From Acrocarpospora phusangensis (GTDB taxonomy: Bacteria > Actinomycetota > Actinomycetes > Streptosporangiales > Streptosporangiaceae), in NCBI RefSeq assembly GCF_016862995.1, contig NZ_BOOA01000056.1, positions 1 through 56,938 of the forward strand: 56,938 bases of DNA, given 5' to 3'. Positions 4,154 to 28,962 of the stretch are shown here, one piece after another. How positions within the stretch are numbered: the first letter of the stretch is position 1; every line of letters starts with the position of its first letter. Under the pieces are notes generated by a model that searched no databases, was not told the DNA's origin, and was given only the letters and a program-made list of their open reading frames with translations. The position numbers were made by a program, and so were the translations under genes.

Positions 4154-5116
4154 ATGACCCGCAGGTGGCTCTGGGCAGTCGCGCTCCTGGCGGTCGCCGC
4201 TGTCGTGGCGGCCCTCGTGTGGCCCACGTCGTCCGATCCCGTCGATCAGTCCGCCGATCAGTCCGATCAGTCGGGGAACGTCCAGATCGAAGCCCCGGAC
4301 GACCGCACGCGCGTGCTCACCGTGCGCTCGGCCGCGCTCGGCCGCCCCGCCAAGGCGACCGTGCTGCTTCCGCCGGGCTGGATGCCGGGATCAGGGCCGT
4401 GGCCGGTGCTGTACCTGCTCCACGGGTGCTGCCAGTCGTCCTCCAGCGGCGGATGGCTGGAGGACGACGGCACCGCCCGGATGACCGCCGGCGCCCCGGC
4501 GCTGATCGTGATCCCCGACGGCGGGCCGACCAGCTGGTACTCCGACTGGCTGGAAGGCCCCAAGTGGGAGACCTTCCACCTCAAGGAGCTGCGCGAGATC
4601 CTGGAGGAGGAGTTCGGCGCGGGCGACCGGCGCGCGATCGCCGGCCTGTCCATGGGCGGCCTCGGCGCGATGGGCTACGCCGCGCGCAACCCCGGCATGT
4701 TCCGGGCCGCCGCGTCCTATTCGGGCGTCCTCGACAGCCAGGCCCAGGCCGACGCGATCCTCGACATCACCAGGAACTGGGGCGAGGACCCCGCCAAGCT
4801 CTGGGGCCTGGACCCTTCCTCCCGGGTCTGGGACGACCACAACCCGGCCAAGCTCACCGACCGCCTGAAGGGAGTCCGGCTCTACGTCGCCTGCGGCGAC
4901 GGCACTCCGGGCCCGCTCGACCCCGACGGCACCGGCGACGACAGCAGTGAACGTTTCCTGCTCGGCGAGGCCCAGACCTTCGTCCAGCGGGCGGAGCAGA
5001 GCGGCCTGGACGTCACCACCGACTTCTACGGTCCCGGCACGCACACCTGGCCCTACTGGAGCCGCGCGTTGGAGCGCTCGCTGCCCATGCTGATGGAGGC
5101 CCTCACCACCGAATGA
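4154..5116 (+). CDS. Membrane-anchored or secreted alpha/beta-hydrolase esterase (Ag85/esterase D-like)
   Basis: 320 residues from ATG 4154. An N-terminal hydrophobic segment (RRWLWAVALLAVAAVVAALVW) acts as signal peptide or anchor, followed by a short Gln/Asp/Ser linker. The rest is a putative-esterase domain of the type shared with antigen 85 mycolyltransferases and S-formylglutathione hydrolase: oxyanion motif YLLHGCC, nucleophile elbow GLSMGG with Ser about residue 166, ARNPGMFRAAASYSG after it, and a late GTHTWPYW with the catalytic His. Extracytoplasmic ester hydrolysis or acyl transfer is the expected activity. It stands alone as a transcription unit. Confidence 0.85.
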   Translation: MTRRWLWAVALLAVAAVVAALVWPTSSDPVDQSADQSDQSGNVQIEAPDDRTRVLTVRSAALGRPAKATVLLPPGWMPGSGPWPVLYLLHGCCQSSSSGGWLEDDGTARMTAGAPALIVIPDGGPTSWYSDWLEGPKWETFHLKELREILEEEFGAGDRRAIAGLSMGGLGAMGYAARNPGMFRAAASYSGVLDSQAQADAILDITRNWGEDPAKLWGLDPSSRVWDDHNPAKLTDRLKGVRLYVACGDGTPGPLDPDGTGDDSSERFLLGEAQTFVQRAEQSGLDVTTDFYGPGTHTWPYWSRALERSLPMLMEALTTE

Positions 5117-5125
5117 CACCCGAAA

Positions 5126-5338
5126 TCACGCGACCTTGGCGGAACTGACCGTCCACGTGTTGCAGACCTCGGGCGACACCGCCTTGAAGACGGTGAAGCG
5201 CATCTCCTTGTCGCAGTACTCGGCGACCCCGCCGCCCCAGCGCCCCCGCAGTTGCGGCGGGGTTTGGTCAGGAGGCCGGGCAGCAGGAGGAGCCCGGATC
5301 AGCGGCGAATATTCATGGAAAGCCCCACGGTCCGAAGG
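5126..5338 (-). pseudogene. Possible remnant of a secreted protein gene
   Basis: A short minus-strand frame ends at TGA 5126-5128 and encodes a C-terminal stretch WGGGVAEYCDKEMRFTVFKAV followed by SPEVCNTWTVSSAKVA. This part has two cysteines and an alternating hydrophobic pattern that looks like real coding sequence, whereas the upstream half is Pro/Arg low-complexity with no start codon and a stop at 5339-5341. I do not recognise the family. It may be the leftover tail of a gene; it could also be chance. Confidence 0.3.
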
Positions 5339-5382
5339 TCATCATCTTCCGGGCGTTCCATTCGGTTCCACCGTGTGTCCGG

Positions 5383-6878
<1,496 letters not shown>

Positions 6879-6882
<4 letters not shown>

Positions 6883-8600
6883 CCCGACTCCCCCCGGATC
6901 GGCCGGTACCGAGGCTGCCACATCGCGTCCTGGACCTGCTGGACCGGGTCCTTCAGGTCCACGCGGGCCAGGTTCTCCGCGGCGGCCTGCCGGCAGACGG
7001 CCACCGCGACCGTGGCGGAGACCTCGCGCAGGTTCTCCACCTGCGGCAGCAGCGACGCGCCCGGGGTGGAGACGTCCACAAGACCGCCCACCGCGTCGGC
7101 CGCCGCGTGCAGCATGCCCTTGCTCACCTGCCGCGCGCGCGACACGACCGCGCCCAGTCCCAGACCCGGGTACAGCAGGGCGTTGTTGGCCTGGCCGATG
7201 ACGTGCGTGACGCCGTGGCAGGTGATCGGGTTGATCGGCACGCCGGTCGCGATCAGGGCCCGGCCGTCGGTCCAGGTGATGAGGTCCTGCGGCATGGCCT
7301 CGATCCGGTCGGTCGGGTTGGAGATCGGGAAGATGATCGGCCGCTCCACGTTCGCCGCCATGGCCCGGACGATCTCCTCGGTGAACGCGCCGTGCGCGGT
7401 GGAGGTGCCGAGCAGCATCGTCGGCTTGACCCGGCGTACGACCTCGCCGAGGCGGATGCCGCCTTCGTCCCTGCGCCAGCCGGCCACCTCGGACGACGGC
7501 CGCGCGTACGGGACCTGGAAGTCCCGCAGATCGGACATGTCGTCGACGAGCAGGCCCTGCTTGTCGACCGGCCAGATCCGGCGTCCGGCCGTCTCGGGGT
7601 CGAGGCCGTCGCGCACCATGGCGTCGCGGAGCTGGTCGGCGATGCCGATGCCCGCCGTGCCCGCGCCGAAGACGACGACGCGCTGGTCGCGCATCGGGGT
7701 GCCGGTGACGCGGGTCGCGCCGAGCATGGCGGCCAGGACGATCGCGCCCGTGCCCTGCATGTCGTCGTTGAAGGTGGGCAGCCGCCCGGTGTACTTCTCC
7801 AGGATGCGGCGCGCGTTGGACGGGCCGAAGTCCTCCCAGTGCAGCATGGCGTTGGGGAACAGGCGGGTGGCCGTCGTCACGTACGCGTCGATGAAGTCGT
7901 CGTAGCGCCTGCCGCGCTTCCTGGAATGGCGTTCGCCCACGTAGAAGGGGTCGTTGAGGAGCCCTTCGTTGTCGGTGCCGACGTCCAGGGCGACCGGGAT
8001 GACACGGCCGGGGTCGATCCCGGCGGCGGCCGTGTAGACGGTCAGCTTGCCGACGGCGATTCCGGCCGCGCCGCCGACCCCCCAGTCGCCGATGCCCAGG
8101 ATCTCCTCGGCGTCGGAGGCGACGATCAGATCGACCTGGTCGGCCTCCAGGCCGAAGTTGCGGAAAGCCTGCTCGATGCCGTCCATGTCGTCGATGGACA
8201 GGTAGACGCCGCGCGGACGACGGTACTCCTGGCTGTAGTTCTTGATCGCCTGGGCGACCGTCGGGTCGTACACGATGGGGAGCATCTCCCGCAGGTGGTC
8301 GCTGAGCAGGCGGTAGAAGAGCACCTCGTTGCGGTCCTGCAGGCCGGTCAGGTACACGTTCTTCTGCAGGTCCGTCGGCTGCGCCAGATACTGGGCGTAC
8401 GCGCGGGCGACCTGCTCGTCGATGGTCTCCACCACCGGCGGGATCAGCCCGTCGAGACCCAGCTCCTGCCGTTCCTCCAGGCTGAACGCCGTGTCCTTGT
8501 TGAGCAGCGGATTCTCCAGGACGGCCAAGCCGCCCTCCGAGGTCACATAGCCCTCGGCGGTCTCCTCGAAGGTCATGCTGGACCGTCTGTGGTGGGTCAT
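6879..8600 (-). CDS. NAD-dependent malic enzyme
   Basis: 573 residues from ATG 8600 (MTHHRRSS), preceded by GAGGAGG at a good distance; the longer open frame upstream is not needed. Family blocks include ENPLLNKDTAF and LGLDGLIPP near the N-terminus, YDPTVAQAI, GDWGVGGAAGIAVGKL, HWEDFGPSNARRIL with the metal-binding acidic residues, and the dinucleotide motif FGAGTAGIGIADQL. The length and blocks match large-subunit malic enzymes (SfcA/MaeA type) that oxidatively decarboxylate malate to pyruvate. It is the first gene of a two-gene operon with fumC, consistent with control of the malate pool. Confidence 0.93.
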
Positions 8601-8721
8601 CGACGCCTCCTCCCGCAGGTCCAGCCTCACTCGGGCCGCGCTGCGCGCACAACAAAGCCGCAACAAATATCCGTTTGCCGGACAAACCGGTCAGTCGATT
8701 GGGATCGGGAACATTCCGAAG

Positions 8722-9207
8722 ATGCAGACCTTCCTGCCGTACCCCGACTTCGACGCCACGGCCCGCGTGCTCGACCCGCGCCGCCTCGGCAAACAGCGCG
8801 TCGAAGCCCTCCAGGTCCTGCGCGCCCTCACCGTGAGCGGGTACGGCTGGCGCCACCACCCCGCCCCGAAGATGTGGGCCGGCTACGAAGAAGCCCTCGT
8901 CCGGTACGGCCTGCAGATCTGCGCCGCCTGGTGCGCCCTCGACCGCGCCGACACCTGCTCCGCCACGATGCGCCGGGACCTCTCCTCCTCCTGCGCGATC
9001 ACGAGGATCCGCTCCCAGCGCGCACTCGGAGAATCGGGCGACCTTCCCCCCTGGCTCGGCGACCCCGCCTTCCACCTGAGCCACCGTTCCGCCCTGCTCC
9101 GCAAGGACCCGCGCTTCTACCGCCCGCTGTTCGGCGACGAACCCGACGACCTCCCGTACGTCTGGCCGGACTCCGACAGGCTCCCCGGCGTCACCGGTCC
9201 GTCATAG
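8722..9207 (+). CDS. MSMEG_6728-family protein (pyrimidine-dimer DNA glycosylase-like)
   Basis: 161 residues from ATG 8722 (MQTFLPYPDF). The sequence DFDATARVLDPRRLGKQRVEALQVLRAL, followed by WRHHPAPKMWAGYEEAL and a late HLSHRSALLRKDPRFYRPLF, matches the actinobacterial MSMEG_6728 family, which is distantly related to T4 endonuclease V-like pyrimidine-dimer glycosylases. Actual glycosylase activity has to my knowledge not been established for this family. The 3' end overlaps the convergent PNPOx-like gene by 17 bases. The upstream region holds GTTTG-N5-CAAAC (8673-8687), no SOS box. Confidence 0.75.
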   Translation: MQTFLPYPDFDATARVLDPRRLGKQRVEALQVLRALTVSGYGWRHHPAPKMWAGYEEALVRYGLQICAAWCALDRADTCSATMRRDLSSSCAITRIRSQRALGESGDLPPWLGDPAFHLSHRSALLRKDPRFYRPLFGDEPDDLPYVWPDSDRLPGVTGPS

Positions 9208-9853
9208 CCGTCACATGCGCGGGCACGGCGAACCCGGTCGGCAGCACCGGATCGGTCACGGGCGCGCCCCACGCGGGCGCGACGGGCACCACGCCCGCCC
9301 AGAGCCCGAGTTCCGCGTCAGGCGTGTCACCGTCATCCGGCGGCCCGGTACGGATCTTCACCGACGCCTCGTCGAGCGAAAGCGCCAGCACACTCGTCGC
9401 CGCCAGTTCCTTCCGATTGGGACGGCGCGCGTAATCCCACTGACCGGGCGCGCACTGTTCAGTGATCACCCGCAGCGCGTCGAATTTCTCCTCGGGATCC
9501 GTGACCAGCCGGGGAACGCCGTAAATCATCGCGCTGCGGTAATTCATGCTGTGTTCCATGACCGAACGCGCGAGCACCAGCCCGTCCACGTGCGTGACCG
9601 TCACGCACACCGTCTGATCCGGCGAATTGACCAGGCTCCGGCTCGCCACCGACCCGTGGAAATACAGGGTCTCCTCGGTGGCCCCGTAATTCGTCGGGAT
9701 CACCATGACGGTCCCGTCGACGTTCAGCCCGAGATGGCAGACGAATCCCGCCGCCAGCACGGCGTGCAGATCGGCGCGCACGACCCGGGCCCGCTCCTTC
9801 ATCCGGCGAAGTCTCGTACGGTCGGTGACTCCCAGTTCCTGCGGTGTACTCAC
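9191..9853 (-). CDS. Pyridoxamine 5'-phosphate oxidase-fold (flavin/F420-binding) family protein
   Basis: 220 residues from GTG 9853 (MSTPQELG). The split-barrel pattern is visible: an N-terminal helix with RMKERARVVRADLHAVLAAG, then HLGLNVDGTVMVIPTNYGATEETLYFHGSVASRSL, and later TVTHVDGLVLARSVMEHSMNYRSAMIYG. These match the PNPOx-like family (Nim-type) that binds FMN or F420. The central GVPRLVTDPEEKFDALRVITEQ block is characteristic of this subgroup. Function is unknown beyond a predicted flavin-dependent redox or binding role in the cytoplasm. Confidence 0.82.
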   Translation of the reverse strand: MSTPQELGVTDRTRLRRMKERARVVRADLHAVLAAGFVCHLGLNVDGTVMVIPTNYGATEETLYFHGSVASRSLVNSPDQTVCVTVTHVDGLVLARSVMEHSMNYRSAMIYGVPRLVTDPEEKFDALRVITEQCAPGQWDYARRPNRKELAATSVLALSLDEASVKIRTGPPDDGDTPDAELGLWAGVVPVAPAWGAPVTDPVLPTGFAVPAHVTAMTDR

Positions 9854-9924
9854 CCAGAGCCCTTCCGGCGGGGGGACGGCGTCGCGCTCAGGATAAGACG
9901 CCCCTGCCGGCTCCCGGTCGGCGG

Positions 9925-10620
9925 GTGACCTCCGTTGTTTGCCTCCGAGGCGTGGCCGGGCATCTGACCAGGGTGGATGTCGGCGGTCGTGACCTGCTGC
10001 CGCCCGCGATCCTGACGCTCACCGTGGTGAGCGGCCTGGTCGACGCGGTCAGCTTCCTGGGGCTCGGAAACGTGTTCACGTCGGCCATGACCGGCAACAT
10101 CGTCCTCCTCGGCCTGGCCCTCGGCGGCGCCTCCGGCTTCGCGGTCGGCCCCCCGCTCGTGGCCGCCGTGGCGTACGTGGCCGGGGTCTTCGCTGGAGGC
10201 TTCATCGGCCGCACCGGACCCAGGTGGCTGCGGATCGCCCTGGCCGCCGAGACGCTGCTCCTGGCCGTCGCCGGTCTGCTGGGCTTCGCGAAGGTCTCCC
10301 CGTACGCGGTGATCGTGACCCTCGCCCTGGCCATGGGCATGCGCAACGTCACCACCCACCAGCTCGACGTGCCCGACCTCAAGAACACCACGGTGATGAC
10401 CACCACGGTCACCACCATGATCATCAGCTTGCCGGTGGTCGGCGGGAGCCACCGCAACGTCTGGCGGCTGCTCGCCTCCGTGCTGGCCCTCGTCTGCGGC
10501 ACGACCGTCGGCGCCTGGCTCGTCGACCACCACGGCATCGGCTGGCCCCTCCTGCTCTCCGCCGTCCCCATCGCCGTGCTGACCGCCCTCCTCTGGCGGT
10601 ACGCGGACCCGCACGGCTAG
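9925..10620 (+). CDS. DUF1275 (YoaK-type) integral membrane protein
   Basis: 231 residues if it starts at GTG 9925; GTG codons at 9952 and 9973 are also in frame and possible, the last one being closest to the family start (GGRDLLPPAILTLTVVSGLVDAVSFL). The family signature GLVDAVSFLGLGNVFTSAMTGNIVLLG is followed by about six hydrophobic segments. The membrane part also has a conserved-looking GMRNVTTHQLDVPDLKNTTVMTTT. DUF1275 proteins are uncharacterised inner-membrane proteins, possibly transporters. The stop TAG is embedded in a 4-base overlap (CTAG) with the stop of the convergent sigma-factor fusion gene. Confidence 0.85.
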   Translation: MTSVVCLRGVAGHLTRVDVGGRDLLPPAILTLTVVSGLVDAVSFLGLGNVFTSAMTGNIVLLGLALGGASGFAVGPPLVAAVAYVAGVFAGGFIGRTGPRWLRIALAAETLLLAVAGLLGFAKVSPYAVIVTLALAMGMRNVTTHQLDVPDLKNTTVMTTTVTTMIISLPVVGGSHRNVWRLLASVLALVCGTTVGAWLVDHHGIGWPLLLSAVPIAVLTALLWRYADPHG

Positions 10621-15226: not shown

Positions 15227-16303
15227 GTGACGAAACAAAGGATCTTGGCGTGGTTCGCCGCCCTGCTGATGGCGGGCGCATTGGCGACGATCCTGCCAAC
15301 CTCCCCGGCCAGCGCCGCCGCCTGCGCGGCCCCGTGGAGCGCCAGCCAGGTGTACTGGGGCGGGACGACGGTCTCCCACAACGGCCGCAACTGGCTCGCC
15401 AAGTGGTGGACCCAGAACGAGGCGCCCCCCGGCACCACGGGTGTCTGGGCCGACCAGGGTTCCTGTGGCGGCACCACCAACCCGCCCCCGGGCACCTGCA
15501 ACCACCCCAACTGGCAGGCCGGCACCTGGTACCCGGCGGGCAGCATCGTCCGCTACACCAACGGCCAGTACTACGTCGCCGAGCATGACAACCCGGGCTA
15601 CGACCCTATCATCAGCACCTGGTACTGGGACCCGTACACCTGCGGTGGCTCCACCCCGCCGCCCACAAACCCGCCGCCCTCGGGCGGGTTCGTCGTCTCC
15701 GAGGCTCAGTTCAACCAGATGTTCCCTGGCCGGAACTCGTTCTACACCTACAGCGGCCTGGTGGCGGCGCTCAGCGCGTACCCGGGATTCGCGAAGACCG
15801 GCAGCGACACGGTCCGCAGGCAGGAGGCGGCGGCGTTCCTGGCGAACGTGAGCCACGAGACCGGCGGCCTGGTGCACATCGTCGAGCAGAACACCGCGAA
15901 CTACCCGCACTACTGCGACACCAGCCAGTCCTACGGCTGCCCGGCCGGGCAGGCCGCCTACTACGGGCGCGGCCCGATCCAGCTGAGCTGGAACTTCAAC
16001 TACAAGGCGGCGGGTGACGCGCTCGGCCTCAACCTGCTGGGCAACCCCTGGCTGGTGCAGAACGACGCCGCCGTGGCGTGGAAGACCGCGCTCTGGTACT
16101 GGAACACCCAGAGCGGGCCCGGCACGATGACCCCGCACAACGCGATGGTCAACGGCGCCGGCTTCGGGCAGACCATCCGGAGCATCAACGGCAGCCTCGA
16201 ATGCGACGGCCGCAACCCCGCCCAGGTGCAGAGCCGGGTCAGCAAGTACCAGAGCTTCGTCCAGATCCTGGGGACGACGCCCGGTGCCAACCTGAGCTGC
16301 TGA
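15227..16303 (+). CDS. Secreted GH19 chitinase with two CBM5/12 modules
   Basis: 358 residues from GTG 15227, with GGAAAGG upstream. A Sec signal peptide ends around PASAAA (residue 31). Two aromatic-rich chitin-binding modules follow: APWSASQVYWGGTTVSHNGRNW and, after a short Pro linker, HPNWQAGTWYPAGSIVRYTNGQYYVAEH. After a second linker comes a compact GH19 domain: VSEAQFNQMFPGRNSFYTY, catalytic Glu in NVSHETGG, second acidic region IVEQN, and GRGPIQLSWNFNY, ending NPAQVQSRV. It hydrolyses chitin outside the cell. It lies next to the LPMO gene, a pairing that speeds up attack on crystalline chitin. Confidence 0.92.
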   Translation: MTKQRILAWFAALLMAGALATILPTSPASAAACAAPWSASQVYWGGTTVSHNGRNWLAKWWTQNEAPPGTTGVWADQGSCGGTTNPPPGTCNHPNWQAGTWYPAGSIVRYTNGQYYVAEHDNPGYDPIISTWYWDPYTCGGSTPPPTNPPPSGGFVVSEAQFNQMFPGRNSFYTYSGLVAALSAYPGFAKTGSDTVRRQEAAAFLANVSHETGGLVHIVEQNTANYPHYCDTSQSYGCPAGQAAYYGRGPIQLSWNFNYKAAGDALGLNLLGNPWLVQNDAAVAWKTALWYWNTQSGPGTMTPHNAMVNGAGFGQTIRSINGSLECDGRNPAQVQSRVSKYQSFVQILGTTPGANLSC

Positions 16304-16347
16304 AGTCTCCCCTTGCGCCTTCCCGAAGGCTCAGGGATAGTCAATTC

Positions 16348-16363
16348 TTAGGAAGGTTTCCTT
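16348..16363. promoter_or_regulatory. Near-palindrome AGGAAGGTTTCCT upstream of the LPMO gene
   Basis: AGGAA and TTTCCT form an imperfect palindrome (16350-16362) about 120 bases before the LPMO start. Palindromes of the form TTAGGAAA-TTTCCTAA have been reported as operators of ROK-type repressors in front of chitosanase and similar polysaccharide-degradation genes in streptomycetes (from memory). A half-site GTTTCCTTA also lies at 15029-15037, upstream of the chitinase. Co-regulation is inferred. Confidence 0.4.
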
Positions 16364-16479
16364 TTAGTAGAGCTGTAGCTGGCGGCGTCACCCCGCACGG
16401 CAAAAGCGAACCTTCGTCATCGGGCACGGCAACCCCCAGTGCCCGCGTACCCGGAAGACCTCCCAAGGAGGAAAGTCAG

Positions 16480-17337
16480 GTGTACTTACGAAACAGGGTG
16501 GCGTCCGCCGCCGTCGGTCTGCTGACCGGCACGATCCTGGTGGCCCTGCCGGCGACCCCGGCCAGCGCCCACGGCACGATGTCCAACCCCCCGAGCCGCG
16601 TCTACGTCTGCAAGAACGAAGGCCCGGAGAACCCCCAATCGAACGCGTGCAAGGCCGCCGTCGCCGCCGGCGGAACCCAGGCGTTCTACGACTGGAACGA
16701 GGTCTCGCTGCTGGAGGTCGGCGGCCAGCACCAGGCGTTCGTTCCCAACGGCAAGCTGTGCAGCGCCGGCCGTGACAAGTACCGCGGCCTCGACCTGGCC
16801 CGCTCCGACTGGCCGGCCACCAACTTCTCGTCGGGCCCGCGGACCATCACCTACCACGCCACGGCGCCCCACGCGAACAGCAACTTCTCCTTCTACATCA
16901 CCCGCGCCGGGTGGAACCCCACGATGCCGTTGAACTGGTCGGACCTGGTGCACATCCAGACGTTCAACAACCAGAACCCGACCACCTTCACCAACTGGAC
17001 GATCAACATCCCGCAGCGGACCGGTCGTCACATCCTGTACTCGATCTGGCAGCGCGTGGTCGGCAGCAACGAGGCCTTCTACACCTGCTCCGACGTCAAC
17101 TTCGGCGGCAGCAACCCGCCCCCGACGACCCCGACCCCGACTCCCACCCCGCCGCCGCCCTCGCCGAGCCCGACGCCCAGCCAGCCGCCGGCCGGCGGAA
17201 CCTGGGCCGCCGGCGTCTTCTACGCCGTGGGCGCGCAGGTCACCTACGCGGGCGTCCGTTACCAGTGCCTCCAGCAGCACACCTCGCTGACGGGCTGGGA
17301 ACCGCCCAACGTGCCCGCCCTCTGGCGCAGGCTCTGA
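16480..17337 (+). CDS. Secreted chitin-active lytic polysaccharide monooxygenase (AA10) with C-terminal CBM5/12
   Basis: 285 residues from GTG 16480, with a strong AAGGAGG 8-14 bases upstream. The signal peptide ends PASA at residue 30, exposing His31 as the mature N-terminus (HGTMSNPPSR), the first ligand of the copper histidine brace; the second is in the ITYHATAPHANSNFSFY region. The catalytic domain runs to about 215 and ends with FYTCSDVNF. A Pro/Thr/Ser linker joins it to a small CBM5/12 module (WAAGVFYAVGAQVTYAGVRYQC). The enzyme oxidatively cleaves crystalline chitin and needs copper and an electron donor. It follows the chitinase in the same direction. Confidence 0.93.
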   Translation: MYLRNRVASAAVGLLTGTILVALPATPASAHGTMSNPPSRVYVCKNEGPENPQSNACKAAVAAGGTQAFYDWNEVSLLEVGGQHQAFVPNGKLCSAGRDKYRGLDLARSDWPATNFSSGPRTITYHATAPHANSNFSFYITRAGWNPTMPLNWSDLVHIQTFNNQNPTTFTNWTINIPQRTGRHILYSIWQRVVGSNEAFYTCSDVNFGGSNPPPTTPTPTPTPPPPSPSPTPSQPPAGGTWAAGVFYAVGAQVTYAGVRYQCLQQHTSLTGWEPPNVPALWRRL

Positions 17338-18586: not shown

Positions 18587-18802
18587 ATGATGATCATCGA
18601 CCGGGCGGCGTACGACCGCGAGGCCAACCGCCTGCTTTTCCGGGTCGTGCACGAGGTGGCCGTCCGCCACGCCGGCCGCCCTTTCGACGAGGTCGTCCAG
18701 GTGTTACGCCGCGACCTGCCCGGTTCCCCGTCGCTGGCCGAGGAGGAGATCCGCCGCATCGCCGAGCAGATCAGCGTGGGCCGGGACCCGTCCGGGCTTT
18801 GA
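18587..18802 (+). CDS. Small conserved-looking hypothetical protein (71 residues)
   Basis: ATG 18587 (MMIIDRAAYDREANRLLFR) follows AGAGGGGGAC, a good ribosome site. The protein is helical and charged: VVHEVAVRHAGRPFDEVVQVLRRDLP then SLAEEEIRRIAEQISVG. It has no signal peptide, cysteines or known motif. It is divergent from the VOC gene and sits 82 bases before the NACHT gene in the same direction, so it could be a short leader gene of that unit. I do not recognise a family; codon usage supports it as real. Confidence 0.6.
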   Translation: MMIIDRAAYDREANRLLFRVVHEVAVRHAGRPFDEVVQVLRRDLPGSPSLAEEEIRRIAEQISVGRDPSGL

Positions 18803-18853
18803 CCCCTACAACGGCGGACATTTCGGTCAGACCGCAACAGGAGTCGTAATCCG

Positions 18854-18869
18854 GAGGTGATTTCACCTC
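18854..18869 (+). promoter_or_regulatory. GAGGTGA-TT-TCACCTC palindrome containing an SD-like sequence
   Basis: GAGGTGA (18854-18860) and TCACCTC (18863-18869) are perfectly complementary. The left arm is a near-perfect Shine-Dalgarno (GGAGGTGA from 18853) but the NACHT start GTG is 15 bases beyond the right arm, so in RNA the arm would be closed and out of register. It may be a protein operator or an RNA hairpin affecting translation of the NACHT gene. Confidence 0.35.
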
Positions 18870-18884
18870 GGCACGATCTACGGC

Positions 18885-21800
18885 GTGTCTCCGCTACGAC
18901 GCAGAATCCTCCGCGCCGGCGCCGTGGTCGTCGCTGTTCTCCTGTTCGGTCTCGTCGTCTGGTTCGTGAACGGGACGATGGAGCAGAACGACCAGCGAGC
19001 CAGTGTGATCGCGATGCTGGTCTCGGTCGGCGCGCTGCTGCTGGCGCTGTATCCGATCCTGCGCGCGGCGCCGCCGGGAATCGAAGGGGTGGACTCGCGG
19101 CTGGTCGCCGACCACCTCGCGGCCGAACTGCTGCGGCAGTGGGAGGACGAGGCCCGCAGCCGTGACCTGATCGACTCCCCGGTCATCCGGCTCACCTGGG
19201 CGGCGGCTTCGGCCACGCTCACCGACGAGCCGGAACTGCCCCGGCGGGGCACGCGCCCGGTCCGCGTCCGCCTGGACGGTGGCCTCTCCGCCAGCCCGAC
19301 CGAGCTGGCCGACCGTTTCCTCCAGCTGCCCGGCCGCCGGCTGGTCGTGCTGGGCGAGCCCGGGGCGGGCAAGAGCGTGCTGGCGTTGCTGCTCACCCTC
19401 GGCCTGCTGCGCCGCCGCGCCTCGGGAGCCGCGGTGCCGGTGCTCTTCCAGGCGGCGTCCTGGGACCCGTTCCGGGAGAACTTCGAGGACTGGATCATCC
19501 GCGTCCTGGCGAGCGACTACTACAACGGCCAGGAGCGCTTCGCCCGGGCGCTGGTCGTGCACCGGCTGATCATCCCGATCCTGGACGGCCTCGACGAGAT
19601 CCCCGACAACCGGCGGGCCTTCGCGATCGGGGAACTCAACAAGATCGCGGTGACGGACCCCTTCATCGCCACGAGCCGGGTCCGCGAGTACGCCGACGTC
19701 GTCACCGAACTGGGGAAGCTGCGCAGCACCCCGGTGGTGGAGATCGCCTCCGTGGACCTGGACGACGCCATCGGCTACCTCACGGCCCTCCCGTGGCCGG
19801 CGGGGACCGACTGGGGTCCGGTCTGCGACCGCATGCGCGAGGACCCGGACAGCCCGCCGGCCCGGACGTTCTCCACCCCGCTCATGATCTCCCTCGCCCA
19901 GGACATCTACATGAAGGGCGGCGATCCCGGCGAACTCCTGGATTCGGCGAAGTTCCCGACCCGGCAGTCGGTGGAGGACGCGCTCCTGGATCGTGCCATT
20001 CCGGCCGCGTACCGTACGGCTCCGGGCGGGACGCCGGCGGAGCCGGAACGGTGGAACGGCGAGGACGCCGAACGCTGGCTGACCTTCCTGGCCACGTATC
20101 TGCAGGGCACGCACCGGCGCACGCTGGCCTGGTGGCGGATCTGCGGGGAGATCCACCGGAACACGACCGACTGGATCATCGTGCTGACCGTGGGGGCGGT
20201 CGTGACCGTGGCGAGCGTGTCGCTGGCCCGGTACTTCGGTCAGTCCGCGACGGGGTTCGGCGACACTCTCCTGGCCGATCTGATGTTCCCGGGGGCGCTG
20301 GTGCTGCTGGGCGTGACCTACCGGTGGGGTGCCACGATCTTCGTGGAGCCGTACCGGCTGGCGGGGAACCATCGGGCGCTTCCGGCGCTCGCCGGCCGGC
20401 TCATCGGCAGTTACGCGTCCTTCATGTGCGTGGGTTTCGTCCCCTTGATCGTCTTTCATCTGGTGATGAACAGCGAGCCGGACCGGGATCTGCTCCTCTT
20501 CGCCTGCGTGGGTTCCGCGTTGCTGATGACGGGCGCGCTGGCCCTGGCCGTCGGGGGGTGGACCACCGCGGCTCCGCCCCGGGTGGGCCACGCCGGGCCG
20601 AGCGCCTCGTTGCGCGACGACCTCGTCTCGACCCTGGTGTCCACGGTGGTGGCCGGATTGGTCGCCGTGGTGGTGGTCCGCGCGTTCGCCTTCGTGCAGC
20701 TGGTCATGACCGACCTGATCTGGGGCACGTTCGCCGGGCTGACCGGCCGCGAGATGCCCGAGTCGTGGTTCCTCGCGGTCGACTACGAGACCATCGTCAG
20801 CCGGCCCAACTCGCTGCTGCTGATCGGGACCGTTCTGATCGTCTTCCTGGCGCTCGTCGGCCGCGCCTCGCCCAAGTTCCTGACCACCCTGGTGATCCTC
20901 GCCTCCCGCAAGTCGGTGCCGTGGTCGCTCATGCCCTTCCTGGAGGACGCCCGGCGGCGTGGCCTGCTGCGGCGCAACGGCGGCTCGTACGAGTTCCGGC
21001 ACGGCAAGCTCCAGGAGCGGCTGGCCACCCGCGACGCCGTACGCGCGGAGGAGGGTTCCGGGTCCCGGAGTTCGGTCGGCCGCCTCTCGGTGGTCGCGCT
21101 CCTCCTCGTGGTGCTCGCGGTGACGCCGATCGCGAACCGCGCCCGCTGCGCGGACACCTGGGACCTGGGCCTGGACGCCCGGCTCAAGCGGGTGCCATCG
21201 GCGGACGGGAGCATCTGCGTGGGCGTGCTGGCGGAGTCGGAGTGGGAGCGGCTCACCCTCCCGGAGGGCTCCGCCGCCGAAGACGTGGCCGACTACGAGG
21301 AGGTCTTCGACCTTCTGCGGAAGTCCAACGCCGAGGCCGGGCGCGCCCGCGAACGGTGGACCGCCGTCGTCAGGGGAAAGCTGAGCGTGCCCGGGGAGGC
21401 CGCGCGGACGGCGTTGCTGGAACGCCTGCGCGGGCTCGCGCTCGCGCAGCGGCGGTTGCTGGCCGCCGGGAGGCCCGTCGTGGTCGTGCTCGCCACCCAG
21501 GGCACCGGGGAGGAGGAGTCGGTCGATCTCAGTGCGCGGATCGCCGGGCTGGTGCGGGAGGACCCGCGCCTGATGGGGCTCGATCTCGGCCCCTTCACCC
21601 ACCTGTCGAACGTCGAGGACCATTTCAGGGAACCGACCGCGCATTTCTACAGCCTGGACGGCGACGGCTCGCTCGTCAGGGACGCGGACTTCTCGGCGGG
21701 TTTCATCGCGGGCTCGGAGGTGTCCGCCCGGTTCTTCCAGGCGGAGTTCCCCGGCCGGGTCCCCGTCACCGTCATCGAGGACGACTACGCCGATCCCTAC

Positions 21801-22457
21801 ATCGGGCTCAACCGGAACGGCGACTTCGTCCAGGTGCCCTCCTCGGACGAGGGCGCGCGCCAGGTCTGCCGCTCCGGCCCGGCCCGGCCGCTGGCGTTCC
21901 AGGCGGAGTCGGACCAGGTGGCGGACTTCATGGAGGGGCTGCGGCGGCACTGCGCGGGGAAGTACCCGAGTGTCGTGGTGACCAACTCCAGCGCCGTCCC
22001 GCAGTTCGCCACGCTGGATTTCCCCGCCGGCCTCCGGGTCTTCTACCCGGTTCTGGCCAGCAGCAGGGCGTGGCGGGACTGCCGCACGGTGGGCTTCTTC
22101 CAGGAGTACGAGCGCCTCTTCGGGGCCGGGGACACCGTGTGCGCCCGTACGGCCGACGGCCAGGCGATGATCGCCCACGACCTGCTGACGCTCCAGGCGG
22201 ACGTGGCCTTCCGGACGGGCGCGGGCGGCTACGACCCCGACCTCTTCCGCGGCGTGGACGCGAAGCGCCCGGTGGTCGGCGTCGCGGGACCGATGTACTA
22301 CACCGACGAGGTCGACGAGTACGACCAGGAGCCCGACGTGCGCACGGTGCTCATGATGGAGGTGAACGGCACGACCTCCGGCGTACGGTTCGTCTGCGGT
22401 CCGCTGACGCCCGCGCCCGTGGTGACGCCGGCGCCCGAATGCGGGAAGAACTCCTAA
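18885..22457 (+). CDS. Membrane-embedded NACHT NTPase with C-terminal extracytoplasmic ligand-binding-like domain
   Basis: 1190 residues from GTG 18885. Two hydrophobic segments (about 9-29 and 40-60) precede a cytoplasmic NACHT domain: Walker A GEPGAGKSV at about 157, Walker B IPILDGLDEIPD at about 230, sensor-like ATSRVREY. A WLTFLA-type helical region (about 400) leads into several membrane helices between about 430 and 665. FLEDARRRGLLRRNGGSYEFRHGKLQERLA (about 685-714) is the winged-helix-like end common in actinobacterial NACHT proteins. A further helix (about 729-752) is followed by some 440 residues resembling a type-1 periplasmic binding protein (for example ADGQAMIAHDLLTLQADVAF near the end). 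NACHT proteins are STAND switches; the fusion suggests a transmembrane receptor. Ligand and output are unknown. Confidence 0.8.
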   Translation: MSPLRRRILRAGAVVVAVLLFGLVVWFVNGTMEQNDQRASVIAMLVSVGALLLALYPILRAAPPGIEGVDSRLVADHLAAELLRQWEDEARSRDLIDSPVIRLTWAAASATLTDEPELPRRGTRPVRVRLDGGLSASPTELADRFLQLPGRRLVVLGEPGAGKSVLALLLTLGLLRRRASGAAVPVLFQAASWDPFRENFEDWIIRVLASDYYNGQERFARALVVHRLIIPILDGLDEIPDNRRAFAIGELNKIAVTDPFIATSRVREYADVVTELGKLRSTPVVEIASVDLDDAIGYLTALPWPAGTDWGPVCDRMREDPDSPPARTFSTPLMISLAQDIYMKGGDPGELLDSAKFPTRQSVEDALLDRAIPAAYRTAPGGTPAEPERWNGEDAERWLTFLATYLQGTHRRTLAWWRICGEIHRNTTDWIIVLTVGAVVTVASVSLARYFGQSATGFGDTLLADLMFPGALVLLGVTYRWGATIFVEPYRLAGNHRALPALAGRLIGSYASFMCVGFVPLIVFHLVMNSEPDRDLLLFACVGSALLMTGALALAVGGWTTAAPPRVGHAGPSASLRDDLVSTLVSTVVAGLVAVVVVRAFAFVQLVMTDLIWGTFAGLTGREMPESWFLAVDYETIVSRPNSLLLIGTVLIVFLALVGRASPKFLTTLVILASRKSVPWSLMPFLEDARRRGLLRRNGGSYEFRHGKLQERLATRDAVRAEEGSGSRSSVGRLSVVALLLVVLAVTPIANRARCADTWDLGLDARLKRVPSADGSICVGVLAESEWERLTLPEGSAAEDVADYEEVFDLLRKSNAEAGRARERWTAVVRGKLSVPGEAARTALLERLRGLALAQRRLLAAGRPVVVVLATQGTGEEESVDLSARIAGLVREDPRLMGLDLGPFTHLSNVEDHFREPTAHFYSLDGDGSLVRDADFSAGFIAGSEVSARFFQAEFPGRVPVTVIEDDYADPYIGLNRNGDFVQVPSSDEGARQVCRSGPARPLAFQAESDQVADFMEGLRRHCAGKYPSVVVTNSSAVPQFATLDFPAGLRVFYPVLASSRAWRDCRTVGFFQEYERLFGAGDTVCARTADGQAMIAHDLLTLQADVAFRTGAGGYDPDLFRGVDAKRPVVGVAGPMYYTDEVDEYDQEPDVRTVLMMEVNGTTSGVRFVCGPLTPAPVVTPAPECGKNS

Positions 22458-23620
22458 CTCGGCAGGAGGGCGGCCGGGTCGGCGATGACGCGTTCGATCA
22501 CCTGGCCCGCCGCGCCCAGGGCCGCGGCCTCGAAGCCGAGGCGGGAGACGACCACCGGGGGCACGGAGACGCGCATCTGGCCGAGGCGTGATTGCAGGGT
22601 CTCGGTGACGACGGCGCCGATGTACGGAAATAGTGGGACGAAGACGCCGCCGAGGACGATGGTGTCGGGATCGACCAGGTTGACCGTGGAGGAGAGGGCG
22701 ACGCCGAGGGCCCAGCCGGCCTCCCGGCAGGCGGTCACCGCGGCGGGGTCCTGCGCCTCGACCCGGGTGACCATCGTCATGAGGCCGACGGAGCCCGCCG
22801 CACCGGTGGAGCGGAGCAGGGCGTCCTGGCCGGCGTACTGCTCCAGGCAGCCGCGGCCGCCGCAGCGGCAGGGGGGACCGTCGGGGGAGACGACCACGTG
22901 GCCGAGCTCGCCCGCGAAGCCCCTCGCGCCGCGGAACAGGGAGCCGGCCACGACCAGGCCCGCGCCGATGCCGATCTCGCCCGAGACGTAGAGGAAGTCG
23001 GTCGGTCCCGCGCCGAACCAGAGCTCGGCCAGCGCGGCCAGGTTGGCCTCGTTCTCGACGTGCAGCGGCATGCCCAGGTCCAGCAGCGAGAGCACGGGCA
23101 CGTCCCGCCAGCCGAGGTTGGGGGCGTTGTGCACGACGCCGCTCCCCAGATCCACCGGACCCGGTACGGCCAGCGCCCCCCCGACGATGCGCAGCCCGTT
23201 ACCCACAGCTTCATCCACAGCCGAAAGGGCCAGATCCCTGAGCCTGGCGATGACATCCACAGGCTGTGCGGAACGGTTATCCACAGCCTGTGTACGGCGG
23301 AGCCGTACCGAGCGGGAGAGGTCGACCACGCGGACGGCCAGGTAGTCGACGTTGATCTCCAGCCCGAGCGCCGCGATCCCCGCGCCCCGGATGCGCACCT
23401 CGACGCCCGGCCGTCCCCGCTCGCCGCCGCGCACGACGCCCGTCTCCTCCACCAGGCCGGTCTCGATCAGGTCGGCCACCAGCTTGGAGACGGTGGTCTT
23501 GGTCAGTCCGGTCACCTCGGCCAGGGCGGCTCTGGTCAGCGAGCCGCGCGCGCTGACCTCCCGGAGCACCAGCGCCAGGTTGCGGGCCCGCATCGCGTCG
23601 TGCCGTACGGCCTGGGTCAT
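22454..23620 (-). CDS. xylR: ROK family transcriptional repressor, probable xylose repressor
   Basis: 388 residues from ATG 23620 (MTQAVRHDAMRARN), with GGAGG at 23626-23630. The N-terminal winged HTH reads LREVSARGSLTRAALAEVTGLTKTTVSKLVADLIETGLV. The ROK sugar-kinase-like domain follows, with LGLEINVDYLAVRVVDL, NEANLAALAELWFG, the GIGAGLVVAGSLFRGARGFAGELGHV block and the zinc-binding CRCGGRGCLEQYA. It is divergent from xylA across a 117-base spacer with an operator-like palindrome, and so should repress xylAB in the absence of xylose. Its stop overlaps the NACHT gene stop in CTAA. Confidence 0.88.
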   Translation of the reverse strand: MTQAVRHDAMRARNLALVLREVSARGSLTRAALAEVTGLTKTTVSKLVADLIETGLVEETGVVRGGERGRPGVEVRIRGAGIAALGLEINVDYLAVRVVDLSRSVRLRRTQAVDNRSAQPVDVIARLRDLALSAVDEAVGNGLRIVGGALAVPGPVDLGSGVVHNAPNLGWRDVPVLSLLDLGMPLHVENEANLAALAELWFGAGPTDFLYVSGEIGIGAGLVVAGSLFRGARGFAGELGHVVVSPDGPPCRCGGRGCLEQYAGQDALLRSTGAAGSVGLMTMVTRVEAQDPAAVTACREAGWALGVALSSTVNLVDPDTIVLGGVFVPLFPYIGAVVTETLQSRLGQMRVSVPPVVVSRLGFEAAALGAAGQVIERVIADPAALLPS

Positions 23621-26282: not shown

Positions 26283-26382
26283 ACCCTGAGGGAACCCTGA
26301 TGCCGCCTCGGGGGTGGGCATCAGGGGTATATCGGTACTTAGCCGGATGGTTGCGGCAGGCGTTTCGCGGCACGCTTTTTGC

Positions 26383-26997
26383 ATGGTCAAGAGGTTTGCT
26401 CCCCTGGTCGCCTGCGCGGGCGTGGTCGTCGCGCTGGCCGCGCTCGTCCCGGACCAGGTCGATCCGGTGAACACGACCATCAGCGCGGCGCTCGCCCACG
26501 GTGGGAGCACCCGCCTGGCGCTGGCCGCCCTCGGGCTGGCGGCCCTGGCGCTGTGGGCCGGGATGCGGGCCGGCAAGGCTCCGGTGGGCGGCTGGCCGGA
26601 GCGTCTGATCCTGGCCTGGGCGACGGCGATGGCCGCCGCGCCGTTCCTGCCGGAGATGGTCTGGCAGGTGCTGGCCTTCACCACGCTGCCGGCCGCGACC
26701 GCGCAACTGGTCGGCCGGTTCGCCGACGACGAGCGGTGGCGGGTGGTGGCCCGGCCGGTGGAGTGGCTGACCCTGGCCGCGGGCCTCGGGGTGGCCGCGC
26801 TGACCTACGTGGCGCTGCCGGGCGACGGCGTCATGATGGGGCTGGTGGAGCGCGCCCTGCTGGGCGTCGAGGTGGCCGTGCTGGCCGTGCTCGCGGCCCG
26901 CCTGGTCCACCTGAGCTGGGCACACATCCTCCCTAAGCTGCCCAGTCCGGCATTTCATAACATGTCTCGTAACATGTCTTTAACTAGATCCAAATAG
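26383..26997 (+). CDS. DUF998-like multi-pass membrane protein
   Basis: 204 residues from ATG 26383 (MVKRFAPLVACAG); ATG 26347 is an alternative. Six hydrophobic segments are visible, starting with APLVACAGVVVALAALVP and DPVNTTISA, an arrangement resembling DUF998 proteins, then TLAAGLGVAALTYVALPGDGVMMGLVERALLGVEVAVLAVLAARLV. The last residues HNMSRNMSLTRSK are encoded by a direct DNA repeat. No catalytic motif seen. It precedes the conservon-type histidine kinase by 51 bases in the same direction and could be co-transcribed, though the repeat between may be a promoter region. Confidence 0.65.
   Translation: MVKRFAPLVACAGVVVALAALVPDQVDPVNTTISAALAHGGSTRLALAALGLAALALWAGMRAGKAPVGGWPERLILAWATAMAAAPFLPEMVWQVLAFTTLPAATAQLVGRFADDERWRVVARPVEWLTLAAGLGVAALTYVALPGDGVMMGLVERALLGVEVAVLAVLAARLVHLSWAHILPKLPSPAFHNMSRNMSLTRSK
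26958..26979. repeat. Direct repeat TAACATGTCT x2 upstream of the orphan conservon kinase
   Basis: TAACATGTCT occurs at 26958-26967 and 26970-26979, a 12-base period, each with an ACATGT palindrome. It lies at the 3' end of the preceding gene and 70-90 bases upstream of the kinase start, in an AT-rich patch (through TTTAACTAGATCCAAATAG) suited to a promoter or activator site. Confidence 0.45.
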
Positions 26998-27048: not shown

Positions 27049-28962
27049 ATGACAGCAAGCAGGTCAGTCCGCTTCAAGATTTCTACGTTGCTGGTCATCC
27101 CACTGGTATCGCTGGTGGCGCTCTGGGGATTCGCCGCGACGATCACCACCAGTGAGTCTCTGAAGCTCCTGGACATCTCCACCCTGTATCAGGCGATCGG
27201 GGTGCCCGCCGACAAGCTGGCCCGCTCGGTCCAGCGGGAGCACCTGCTCTCCGCCGAGTACCTGGCCACCGGCTCCGCCGAGGCCCGGAGCCTCCTGGCC
27301 GACCAGCGCAGGATCGCCGACGACGACCGCCAGGAGCTGCGCAGCCGCTCCGGCGCGGACGACGCCCAGAACGCGATGTCCGCGCCGATGAAGGCCAGGT
27401 ACAGCGACGTGATGGCCGCCGCGGACGAGCTGGACGACCTCCGCCAGGACGTGGACGCCCGCCGCATCGACCTGGTCACCCTGGGCCAGCGCTACTCCTG
27501 GCTGCCCACGGCCATGATCGCGCTGATCAACAGCATGACCCTGAGCAACAACGTCGAGCTCTACCAGCAGTCCCGCAGCCTGACCTCGATCGGCCTGGCC
27601 GAGGACCACATGACCAGGGAGATCGCGCTCGCCTCCGGGCTGCTGCTGGTCAACAGCCGCTGGGAGGAGTCCGAGCGGCGGGCCTTCACGCAGCTCGCGG
27701 CCAAGCGGGAGTTCCTGTTCGAGCAGGGCATGCTGGAGCTGGAGCCCGACCTGCGCGCCCCCTTCGAGAAGCTGCTCGTCTCGGACGCGTACCGGCAGTT
27801 CCAGCGCATGGAGTCGCGGATCGTCGGCGGAGCCATCGGCCCCGACCTCACCCACGCCGCCTGGCGGCAGGTCGCGCAGGACGTGGACAAGGCGTTCCGG
27901 GCGGCGATCGACGTCGGCGGCGAGGCCCTGGCCTTCCGCGGCGAGCCGGCGGCCATCGGCACGTTCGTCCGGGCCGGCGTGGCCGGCGTCCTGGGCCTCG
28001 TCGCGGTCATCCTGTCCCTGTTCGTCTCCTGGCGGGCCGCCGGGGCGATCTCCCGCGAGCTGGGCGGCCTCCGCTCCGCCGCCCAGGAACTCGCCGAGGT
28101 ACGGCTCCCGCGCGTCGTGGAACGCCTCCGCCGCGGCGAGAAGGTGGACGTGGCCACCGAGGCCCCCGAACTGGAACCCCCGGGCACCACCGCCGAGGTC
28201 CGCGACGTGGCGTACGCTTTCAGCGCGGTGCAGCACACGGCCGTGGACGCCGCGGTCGACCAGGCGCGGCTGCGGGAGAGCGTCGGCCAGGCCCTGCGCA
28301 ACCTCGCCCGCCGCAGCCAGGGGCTCCTGCAGCGCCAGCTCAAACTGCTCGACGCGATGCAGCGGCAGACCGAGGACTCCGCCGCGCTGGAGGATCTGTT
28401 CCGGTTGGACCATCTCACCACTCGGATGCGGCGGCACGCCGAAGGCCTGATCGTGCTGTCGGGGGGCACGCCGGGCCGTACCCACCGCAATCCCGTGCCG
28501 GTGGCCGAGACGCTGCAGGGCGCGGTCGCCGAGGTCGAGGACTACCCGCGCGTCCGGGTCTACCCGATGCCCGAGGTGGCGCTGAACGGGTCGGCGGTCA
28601 CCGACCTCATCCACCTGTTCGCCGAGCTGCTGGAGAACGCCACCACGTACTCGCCGCCGCACACCGAGGTGTCGGTCCGGGGCGAGGCCGTGGCCAAGGG
28701 CTTCGCCGTCGAGGTGGAGGACCGCGGCCTGGGCCTGCCCGCCGCCGACATCGAGGCCATCAACCGGCGCCTGGCCAGCCCGCCCGAGTTCAACCTGGCC
28801 GACACCGACCGGCTGGGCCTCGTCGTGGTCGGCCGCCTGGCCACCCGCCACGGCGTCAAGGTCGAACTGCGCCCGTCGCCGTTCGGCGGGACCACCGCCA
28901 TCGTGCTCATCCCCGCAGCCGTGCTGGCCCCCGAGGCCGTCCTGGAAGGGGCAGGCGCATGA
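27049..28962 (+). CDS. Conservon A-type sensor histidine kinase-like protein (nitrate/nitrite-sensing-like domain)
   Basis: 637 residues from ATG 27049, with GAGGGTG upstream. TM1 (STLLVIPLVSLVALWGFAATI) is followed by a roughly 290-residue helical extracytoplasmic sensor of the NIT type, TM2 (ragvaGVLGLVAVILSLFVSW, about 310-330), a HAMP-like linker, a dimerisation helix region with LDHLTTRMRRHAEGLIVLSGG (about 447-467), and a HATPase domain with N box ELLENATTYSPPHT and G boxes DRGLGLP and GLVVVGRLATRHGV. CvnA proteins form membrane signalling complexes with roadblock, DUF742 and GTPase partners. Here only the DUF742 gene follows, overlapping by ATGA. Paralogue of the protein at 32755. Confidence 0.88.
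   Translation: MTASRSVRFKISTLLVIPLVSLVALWGFAATITTSESLKLLDISTLYQAIGVPADKLARSVQREHLLSAEYLATGSAEARSLLADQRRIADDDRQELRSRSGADDAQNAMSAPMKARYSDVMAAADELDDLRQDVDARRIDLVTLGQRYSWLPTAMIALINSMTLSNNVELYQQSRSLTSIGLAEDHMTREIALASGLLLVNSRWEESERRAFTQLAAKREFLFEQGMLELEPDLRAPFEKLLVSDAYRQFQRMESRIVGGAIGPDLTHAAWRQVAQDVDKAFRAAIDVGGEALAFRGEPAAIGTFVRAGVAGVLGLVAVILSLFVSWRAAGAISRELGGLRSAAQELAEVRLPRVVERLRRGEKVDVATEAPELEPPGTTAEVRDVAYAFSAVQHTAVDAAVDQARLRESVGQALRNLARRSQGLLQRQLKLLDAMQRQTEDSAALEDLFRLDHLTTRMRRHAEGLIVLSGGTPGRTHRNPVPVAETLQGAVAEVEDYPRVRVYPMPEVALNGSAVTDLIHLFAELLENATTYSPPHTEVSVRGEAVAKGFAVEVEDRGLGLPAADIEAINRRLASPPEFNLADTDRLGLVVVGRLATRHGVKVELRPSPFGGTTAIVLIPAAVLAPEAVLEGAGA

Follow-up and report, generated by a model that had tools for sequence, protein, structure and literature searches.

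The gene described here occupies positions 18885–22457 (+ strand) of contig NZ_BOOA01000056.1 of Acrocarpospora phusangensis, whose genome is 9.1 Mb in size; this contig of 56,938 nucleotides is referred to below as the window. The open reading frame (ORF) begins with GTG, contains no internal stops and encodes 1190 amino acids, in which, as judged from the ORF call and hydropathy, a NACHT module, transmembrane (TM) helices, a winged helix, a further TM helix and a domain resembling a type-1 periplasmic binding protein (PBP) follow one another. An earlier note, made from the sequence alone, had proposed a TM NACHT receptor with an outside ligand-binding-like domain.

Nine membrane segments were found by hydropathy, which agrees with the TM build proposed in that note. 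The protein opens with a membrane hairpin (residues 6–63, positions 18900–19073; hydropathy and charge pattern) made of segments 6–33 and 37–63, followed by a juxtamembrane motif, LRQWEDEARSRDL (residues 83–95, 19131–19169), that is conserved in a 67-row alignment. The NACHT NTPase core and HD1 (residues 145–426, 19317–20162) were delimited by alignment and by a profile match to bundle-less NACHT proteins of the same genome. A bundle of some six membrane helices (residues 427–664, 20163–20876), with segments at 427–451, 461–479, 505–531, 535–559, 578–614 and 636–664, of which 461–479 is weak in hydropathy (1.63), separates them from the winged-helix end with YEFRHGKLQERLA (residues 665–722, 20877–21050; alignment and hhalign). 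The last membrane helix (residues 727–755, 21063–21149), called by hydropathy and aligning with the anchor of other PBP-module proteins, leads into a predicted extracytoplasmic PBP-like domain (residues 756–1190, 21150–22454; homology, models and alignment) that lacks a segment of lobe 1. All of these features lie on the + strand.

The window protein is, on its sequence, a member of the NACHT clade of STAND NTPases. The Walker A (GEPGAGKS, residues 157–164), Walker B (ILDGLDEIPD, residues 232–241) and winged-helix motif (YEFRHGKLQERLA, residues 702–714) noticed earlier are all present, together with an HD1 TPL (residues 331–333) and a sensor-like arginine (R265). Nine residues (G157, G162, K163, D234, G235, D237, E238, R265 and F704) are invariant in 67/67 aligned rows, the window row included, and because of this invariance the motifs are not chance matches. 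Within the winged-helix motif, H706 is kept in 63 rows and Q710 in 58; within LRQWEDEARSRDL, W86 and E89 are each found in 61/67 rows and R93 in 55/67. The Pfam NACHT model gives the window protein 17.3 bits, below the cut-off of 26.7; relatives score on either side of it (L050, 28.1; L126, 41.0; L122, 21.2). A search of the PDB sequences with the entire protein as query returned one match (E 0.54), and a contig scan of genomes with the whole protein found no relatives. At E ≤0.001 the whole-protein search matched 171/297 genomes of the family, 67/394 of the class and 5/5 of the genus, figures that include weak NACHT-only matches; the first two are not counts of the split form described below. 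A platform profile matched frames in 123 of 209 loci. The 69 family proteins compared here comprise the best whole-protein matches, seven wider stretches and 39 hand-picked loci, mostly long frames; copies sharing the last 400 residues were counted once, and the set over-represents members with extra domains. In three loci (L206, L207 and L208) two NACHT-TM platforms stand in tandem, and in 3/3 the Walker A lysine of the second copy is replaced by R.

What the earlier note missed is that the membrane bundle lies within the NACHT module and that the protein belongs to a broad family whose end domains are exchangeable. In four of eight NACHT loci examined in the host genome itself (L001, L004, L006 and L007), 310–322 residues separate Walker A from the FxHxxxQE motif with no membrane segments between them; in L004 and L006 membrane segments are located N-terminal to the NACHT module. 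The FxHxxxQE pattern gave no match in L002 and L005, and the remaining two loci, L003 and L008, have a bundle. Of the 69 family proteins, both patterns were found in 47, and in these the same interval measures 413–770 residues and includes membrane segments. When the family profile was compared with that of six bundle-less NACHTs of the host genome (L001, L002 and L004–L007), the alignment with the bundle columns kept ended after 255 columns (score 182), much as for the nucleotide-binding domain and HD1 alone (254 columns, score 178). Removing the bundle columns lengthened the alignment to 310 columns (score 197, E 1.1e-26), which begin in the NTPase core, cross HD1 and reach the winged helix, so that HD1 and the winged helix follow the NTPase core once these columns are omitted. 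The winged-helix piece alone (58 columns) also landed on the winged helix, at columns 309–344 (hhalign E 6.2e-5, probability 64.7%). Because the profile match extends into the winged helix only when the bundle is left out, there is good evidence, at the level of sequence comparison, that the bundle was inserted at the junction of HD1 and winged helix.

The domains attached to this split platform vary. A WD40 propeller behind a membrane helix was found above the Pfam cut-off in L011, L012, L013, L019, the shortened frame L155 and L050, the last of which holds the L010 gene; the WD40 match of L015 is weaker. WD40 repeats without a membrane helix before the C-terminal domain occur in L141, and TPR repeats without a membrane helix in L127, L134, L135 and L138. 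L132 carries an M48-type peptidase with helices, and L122 and L126 have further membrane segments. At the N-terminus, a SARP/BTAD domain was recognized by Pfam in L017, with which L016 and L018 group in the tree, and a Ser/Thr kinase precedes the platform in L130; the SARP/BTAD fusions L016, L017 and L018 are possible membrane-bound transcription regulators. The C-terminal additions of L142, L143, L136, L129, L034, L128, L147, L038, L133, L125 and L157 were left unassigned. The TM+WD40 form is also found outside the family, in group f18 (L204, by Pfam) and f17 (L205, by sequence only). Outside and inside domains thus seem to be swapped freely in the NACHT-bundle family.

In a tree of 67 of the 69 proteins (two with a matched stretch of <500 residues were dropped; quick search, no bootstrap, midpoint-rooted), the window protein clusters with six TM proteins that end in a C-terminal propeller (SH-aLRT 100), five of which have WD40 above the Pfam cut-off. 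Its terminal branch is long (0.88). The survey for conservation of the NACHT-PBP fusion, which had been suggested as a check, found it in the window gene only: across the 209 loci there are 130 frames with a platform match and 73 with a PBP-module match, and the three frames with both (L009, L039 and L061) are all the window's gene. Likewise, the NACHT platform is present in the window's own locus alone among the 59 PBP-module loci (L061–L119), and the PBP profile is matched by the window's protein alone among the 69 platform proteins. Many further matches of the family- and class-wide platform and module searches lie outside the 209 loci.

Residues 756–1190 of the window protein have no Pfam match. 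In a small set of 168 frames, residues 755–1190 matched three actinomycete proteins (E 6e-15, 1e-11 and 6e-10), and with the C-terminal domain alone as query 5/297 family genomes matched, the host's own included. Three of the four other matching genomes hold proteins of about 880 residues; the fourth (G089, E 4.6e-4) has stops in frame. The TM-PBP proteins of about 880 residues come from Nonomuraea terrae (L057), Actinoallomurus iriomotensis (L059) and Actinocorallia populi (L060), and the module is also found in Saccharopolyspora rhizosphaerae (L058); the identity of the window module to these module proteins is 22–27%. Their alignment with the window protein takes in the membrane helix too. 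In the three genomes examined, this helix is preceded by some 390 cytosolic residues, which contain neither a Walker A pattern nor a Pfam domain. Many of the TM-PBP proteins of L061–L119 also have a long region before the membrane helix, in which no Pfam domain was recognized in the 12 frames tested, some of them cut by the locus end. A scan of contigs with the module alignment gave 4 loci, and a four-row module profile matched 184/297 family and 80/394 class genomes, some matches being partial.

When 19 modules were compared alone with Pfam at E ≤0.01, Peripla_BP_6 was matched by six and ANF_receptor by five, the window copy matching neither; the longer frame of L082 scored above the Pfam curated cut-off. 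The 19-row profile matched 4gnr (LivJ) in the PDB with E 1.6e-8; with the earlier 4-row profile the values were 0.034 for 4gnr and 0.12 for NAD(P) transhydrogenases. Because the model of the window domain is weak, the module of N. terrae was predicted with AlphaFold2 from five sequences (pLDDT 79.7, pTM 0.82). The matches that Foldseek listed for this model, in keeping with a two-lobe alternating beta/alpha fold, comprise type-1 substrate-binding proteins, including binders of leucine and of aromatic acids, and metabotropic glutamate receptor (mGluR) ectodomains, with TM-scores to the target of up to 0.83 and identities of ≤19%. The matches listed for the window's own model are nearly all of the type-1 PBP fold as well, so that the fold check proposed earlier comes out in favor of this fold, albeit on a weak model. 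Homology and models together support type-1 PBP ancestry of the window C-terminus, as the earlier note had it, and a LivJ/mGluR-type flytrap, a fold known from proteins that bind nutrients, is predicted for the relative's module. The window copy departs from the other modules at conserved sites (ANAG to ATQG and AGR to QAE) and lacks a lobe-1 stretch, S...T..AI..L...G.PMV, which we take to be the ligand-contact or ligand-loop region of LivJ-type proteins. Because this segment is missing, it is doubtful that the window copy binds the usual kind of PBP ligand.

Counted from the N-terminus, the alternating charge of the loops fits a NACHT module inside and a C-terminus outside: the loops assigned to the inside have 1, 43, 3, 2 and 12 lysines plus arginines (K+R), and those assigned to the outside have 0, 0, 1 and 1. 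Eight of the 12 cysteines are found at or beyond residue 755 (from C755 on), with C778 and C995 invariant in 19/19 aligned modules, a pattern that would be expected of a disulfide-bonded exterior domain. Because of the charge pattern, the cysteines and the homology to modules behind a membrane helix, residues 756–1190 are predicted to be extracytoplasmic. Of the earlier claim that this domain senses an extracellular ligand, the outside placement holds by prediction; sensing of a PBP-like ligand is weakened by the segment missing relative to 18 modules.

Comparison with other genomes of the genus suggests how the gene came to its site. A 71-residue ORF (18587–18802), 82 bases upstream of the NACHT gene, is found in 5/5 genus genomes (identity 70–82% in 4/4 others); its product has a weak Tautomerase match below cut-off and lacks any hydrophobic segment (the highest mean over 19 residues is 0.25). 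In three relatives (L171, L172 and L173) the order DUF305 lipoprotein, glyoxalase, 71-residue gene, ROK repressor and two genes that we take to be xylA and xylB is kept without a NACHT gene, and about 20 to 145 bases lie between the matched stretches of the 71-residue gene and ROK. Nucleotide similarity to these relatives ends at 18799–18806 and restarts at 22464–22467, and the stretch without counterpart (18805–22463, without strand) thus seems, from this comparison, to be an insertion of about 3.66 kb with one gene between the 71-residue gene and ROK; loss in three relatives is a less simple reading. Comparison of 50 bases at each end of the insertion found no direct repeats of at least 6 bases, and no integrase was noted among the neighbors named, a search that was not extended beyond these. 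The GC content of the inserted stretch (0.712, compared with 0.700 for the window) and the third-position GC of the gene (GC3, 0.948) resemble their surroundings, GC3 being like that of the neighbors. In the fourth relative (L174) the 71-residue gene is kept; neither the NACHT gene nor ROK was found in the 12 kb fetched. Other genes, including a Ser/Thr kinase with TPR, stand behind the 71-residue gene there (4980–9925), and the site behind this gene may be variable. The 71-residue gene, which the earlier note had offered as a possible partner, was rejected as such: it is conserved and unlinked, with three of the four other genus genomes keeping it next to ROK and without a NACHT gene beside it.

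A perfect inverted repeat, GAGGTGA-TT-TCACCTC, is found at 18854–18869, within the inserted stretch and shortly 5' of the GTG start; it is a possible operator or RNA hairpin. The promoter/terminator scan found no match. Farther out in the window are a GH19 chitinase and an AA10-type lytic polysaccharide monooxygenase (LPMO), both with CBM5/12 (15227–17337), and a NIT-domain protein that ends in a histidine-kinase-type ATPase (27049–28962) and adjoins a DUF998 protein (26314–26997). In the genus relative L171 (7899–8503) the LPMO gene gave two separate matches, about 600 bases apart.

With bundle-less NACHT and STAND proteins (NLR-like proteins and bNACHT) the window protein shares the order of Walker A, DGxDE Walker B, sensor arginine, HD1 TPL and FxHxxxQE; it differs from them in the bundle between HD1 and the winged helix, in its outward C-terminal domain and in the membrane hairpin that stands at the front in place of a recognized effector. 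NACHT modules power immune sensors of animals and bacteria, and, to our knowledge, the well-characterized NACHT and NLR proteins are cytosolic; the bNACHT clades are reportedly the subject of a paper by Kibby et al. from 2023. The TM+WD40 NACHTs (L010–L013, L019 and L204, with the shortened L155 and the weaker L015) share the platform and the extra helix, but end in a beta-propeller instead of a PBP-like domain. Conversely, the TM-PBP proteins of about 880 residues share the membrane helix and the PBP domain, but have an intact lobe-1 segment and their cytosolic region of about 390 residues where the window protein has the NACHT platform. The fold of the PBP module is also that of LivJ-type binding proteins and mGluR ectodomains, from which the window copy departs by its missing segment.

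Two published systems come close. In the actinobacterial EACC1 conflict systems, TM helices and a downstream extracellular PBP are described in the variable C-terminal position of a caspase protein (Kaur et al., 2020; PMC7159879); an exchangeable TM-PBP end has thus already been published for another platform. The constant caspase-like protein of these systems is paired with a distinct EACC1 gene on its 5' side (PMC7159879), and neither was recognized at the window locus: the 71-residue product upstream lacks the one TM helix of the EACC1 5' gene product and is unlinked elsewhere, and no caspase or cyclase domain was matched by Pfam in the NACHT protein. In Thiohalocapsa PB-PSB1, NACHT-lectin proteins diversified by diversity-generating retroelements, some of them with TM regions, were proposed as antigen sensors, and one locus has two NACHT targets, of which one is predicted to have both its NACHT and its lectin domain in the periplasm (PMC10907252). 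A NACHT protein with an outside domain is thus not new as an idea. The Thiohalocapsa proteins differ in their lectin fold and in their retroelement, and the excerpt does not mention a bundle within the NACHT module (PMC10907252). Among the matches listed in a search of titles and abstract openings of the open-access literature, neither a NACHT-TM-PBP protein nor a bundle-split NACHT module was recognized.

From these results we infer that the window protein is probably a single-chain TM receptor of the STAND/NACHT type. In the resting state it would be ADP-bound and closed. Engagement or dimerization of the ectodomain would move the last helix, which, through the short linker, would pull on the winged helix, and this pull could lead to nucleotide exchange and oligomerization in the membrane and thereby to rearrangement of the inserted bundle. 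Because no enzymatic effector was recognized, the bundle itself would be the likeliest output, by a change in membrane permeability or by docking of a cytosolic partner; in relatives, output or input is seemingly relayed to SARP, kinase, TPR or peptidase domains. As to origin, the gene probably arose by replacement of a propeller, as found in a sister lineage, by a TM+PBP module, or by the opposite exchange, and it now stands as one inserted gene amid sugar genes. A wider proposal, put forward only tentatively, is that of a receptor class whose bundle-split NACHT switch is driven mechanically through the STAND cycle by a flytrap or propeller outside the cell, with the bundle as effector and with sensors exchanged between lineages.

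Several observations weigh against the receptor reading. The movement and effector role of the bundle are proposed by analogy with other STAND proteins, and a protein–protein or dimerization role of the ectodomain is as likely as small-molecule sensing. An ordinary small-molecule sensor is disfavored because the window row lacks about 20 lobe-1 residues present in 18/18 other modules. The winged-helix piece alone reaches just 64.7% probability, and the bundles of relatives count 2 to 8 segments by hydropathy. If the weak helix 461–479 were not a membrane segment, five bundle helices instead of six would flip the topology, which is the main topological uncertainty; the 15-residue flanks of the last helix, with 3 K+R each, are not decisive for the side. 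The PBP domain of the window protein is itself poorly modeled (pLDDT 48.3, pTM 0.56), and its Foldseek TM-scores, 0.24–0.42 by query among the matches listed, are low. Finally, the NACHT-PBP architecture was met once, and a chance fusion without settled function is conceivable.

In the rival explanation that survives best, the ectodomain has worn out as a PBP and lost all sensing, serving as an anchor or dimerization handle, or the gene is a drifting recent fusion. The loss of a segment kept by 18 other modules, the changes at ANAG and AGR, the single occurrence of the fusion in 209 loci and a site that is empty in three of four genus relatives would all suit it, but 435 stop-free codons, retained invariant cysteines and neighbor-like GC3 speak against it, and we regard this explanation as unlikely. 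Somewhat less probable again is a NACHT protein of bNACHT/Avs type that acts against phage by abortive infection and whose membrane location is incidental. Bacterial NACHT proteins defend against phage (PMC12169576), the distribution of the present gene is patchy, as for an accessory gene, and the TM NACHT proteins of Thiohalocapsa with predicted periplasmic sensor domains were proposed as antigen sensors (PMC10907252). No notable defense model was matched, however, the best values being E 0.0021 in PADLOC, for a small model of unknown function, and E 0.15 for EruA in NCBIfam, and no defense gene was named among the few neighbors examined.

An outside-in regulator of nutrition or development, serving for example the neighboring chitin and xylose genes and reading sugars or amino acids with its ectodomain, is improbable. 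The GH19 chitinase, the LPMO and the ROK repressor nearby (and the two genes taken to be xylA and xylB), the PBP ancestry and the SARP regulator fused in a relative are what one would look for in such a protein, but the neighborhood is kept in relatives without the NACHT gene, so that position says little, and the lobe-1 segment is again missing. A cytoplasmic C-terminal domain, and hence no receptor ectodomain, is very improbable: four TPR and one WD40 family members do without a membrane segment after the winged helix, and helix 461–479 is weak, but helix 727–755 is strong, the homologous modules follow one membrane helix, and the enrichment of cysteines and the charge pattern of the loops both point to the outside.

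The split-NACHT family is the more interesting part of the finding. If the receptor reading holds, the window protein would be a bacterial NACHT receptor that watches the exterior of the cell, and a family of bundle-interrupted NACHT proteins that carry domains on the outside would illustrate the coupling of such switches to signals across the membrane. The occurrence of PBP and WD40 domains on one platform provides natural chimeras with which TM coupling may be tested.

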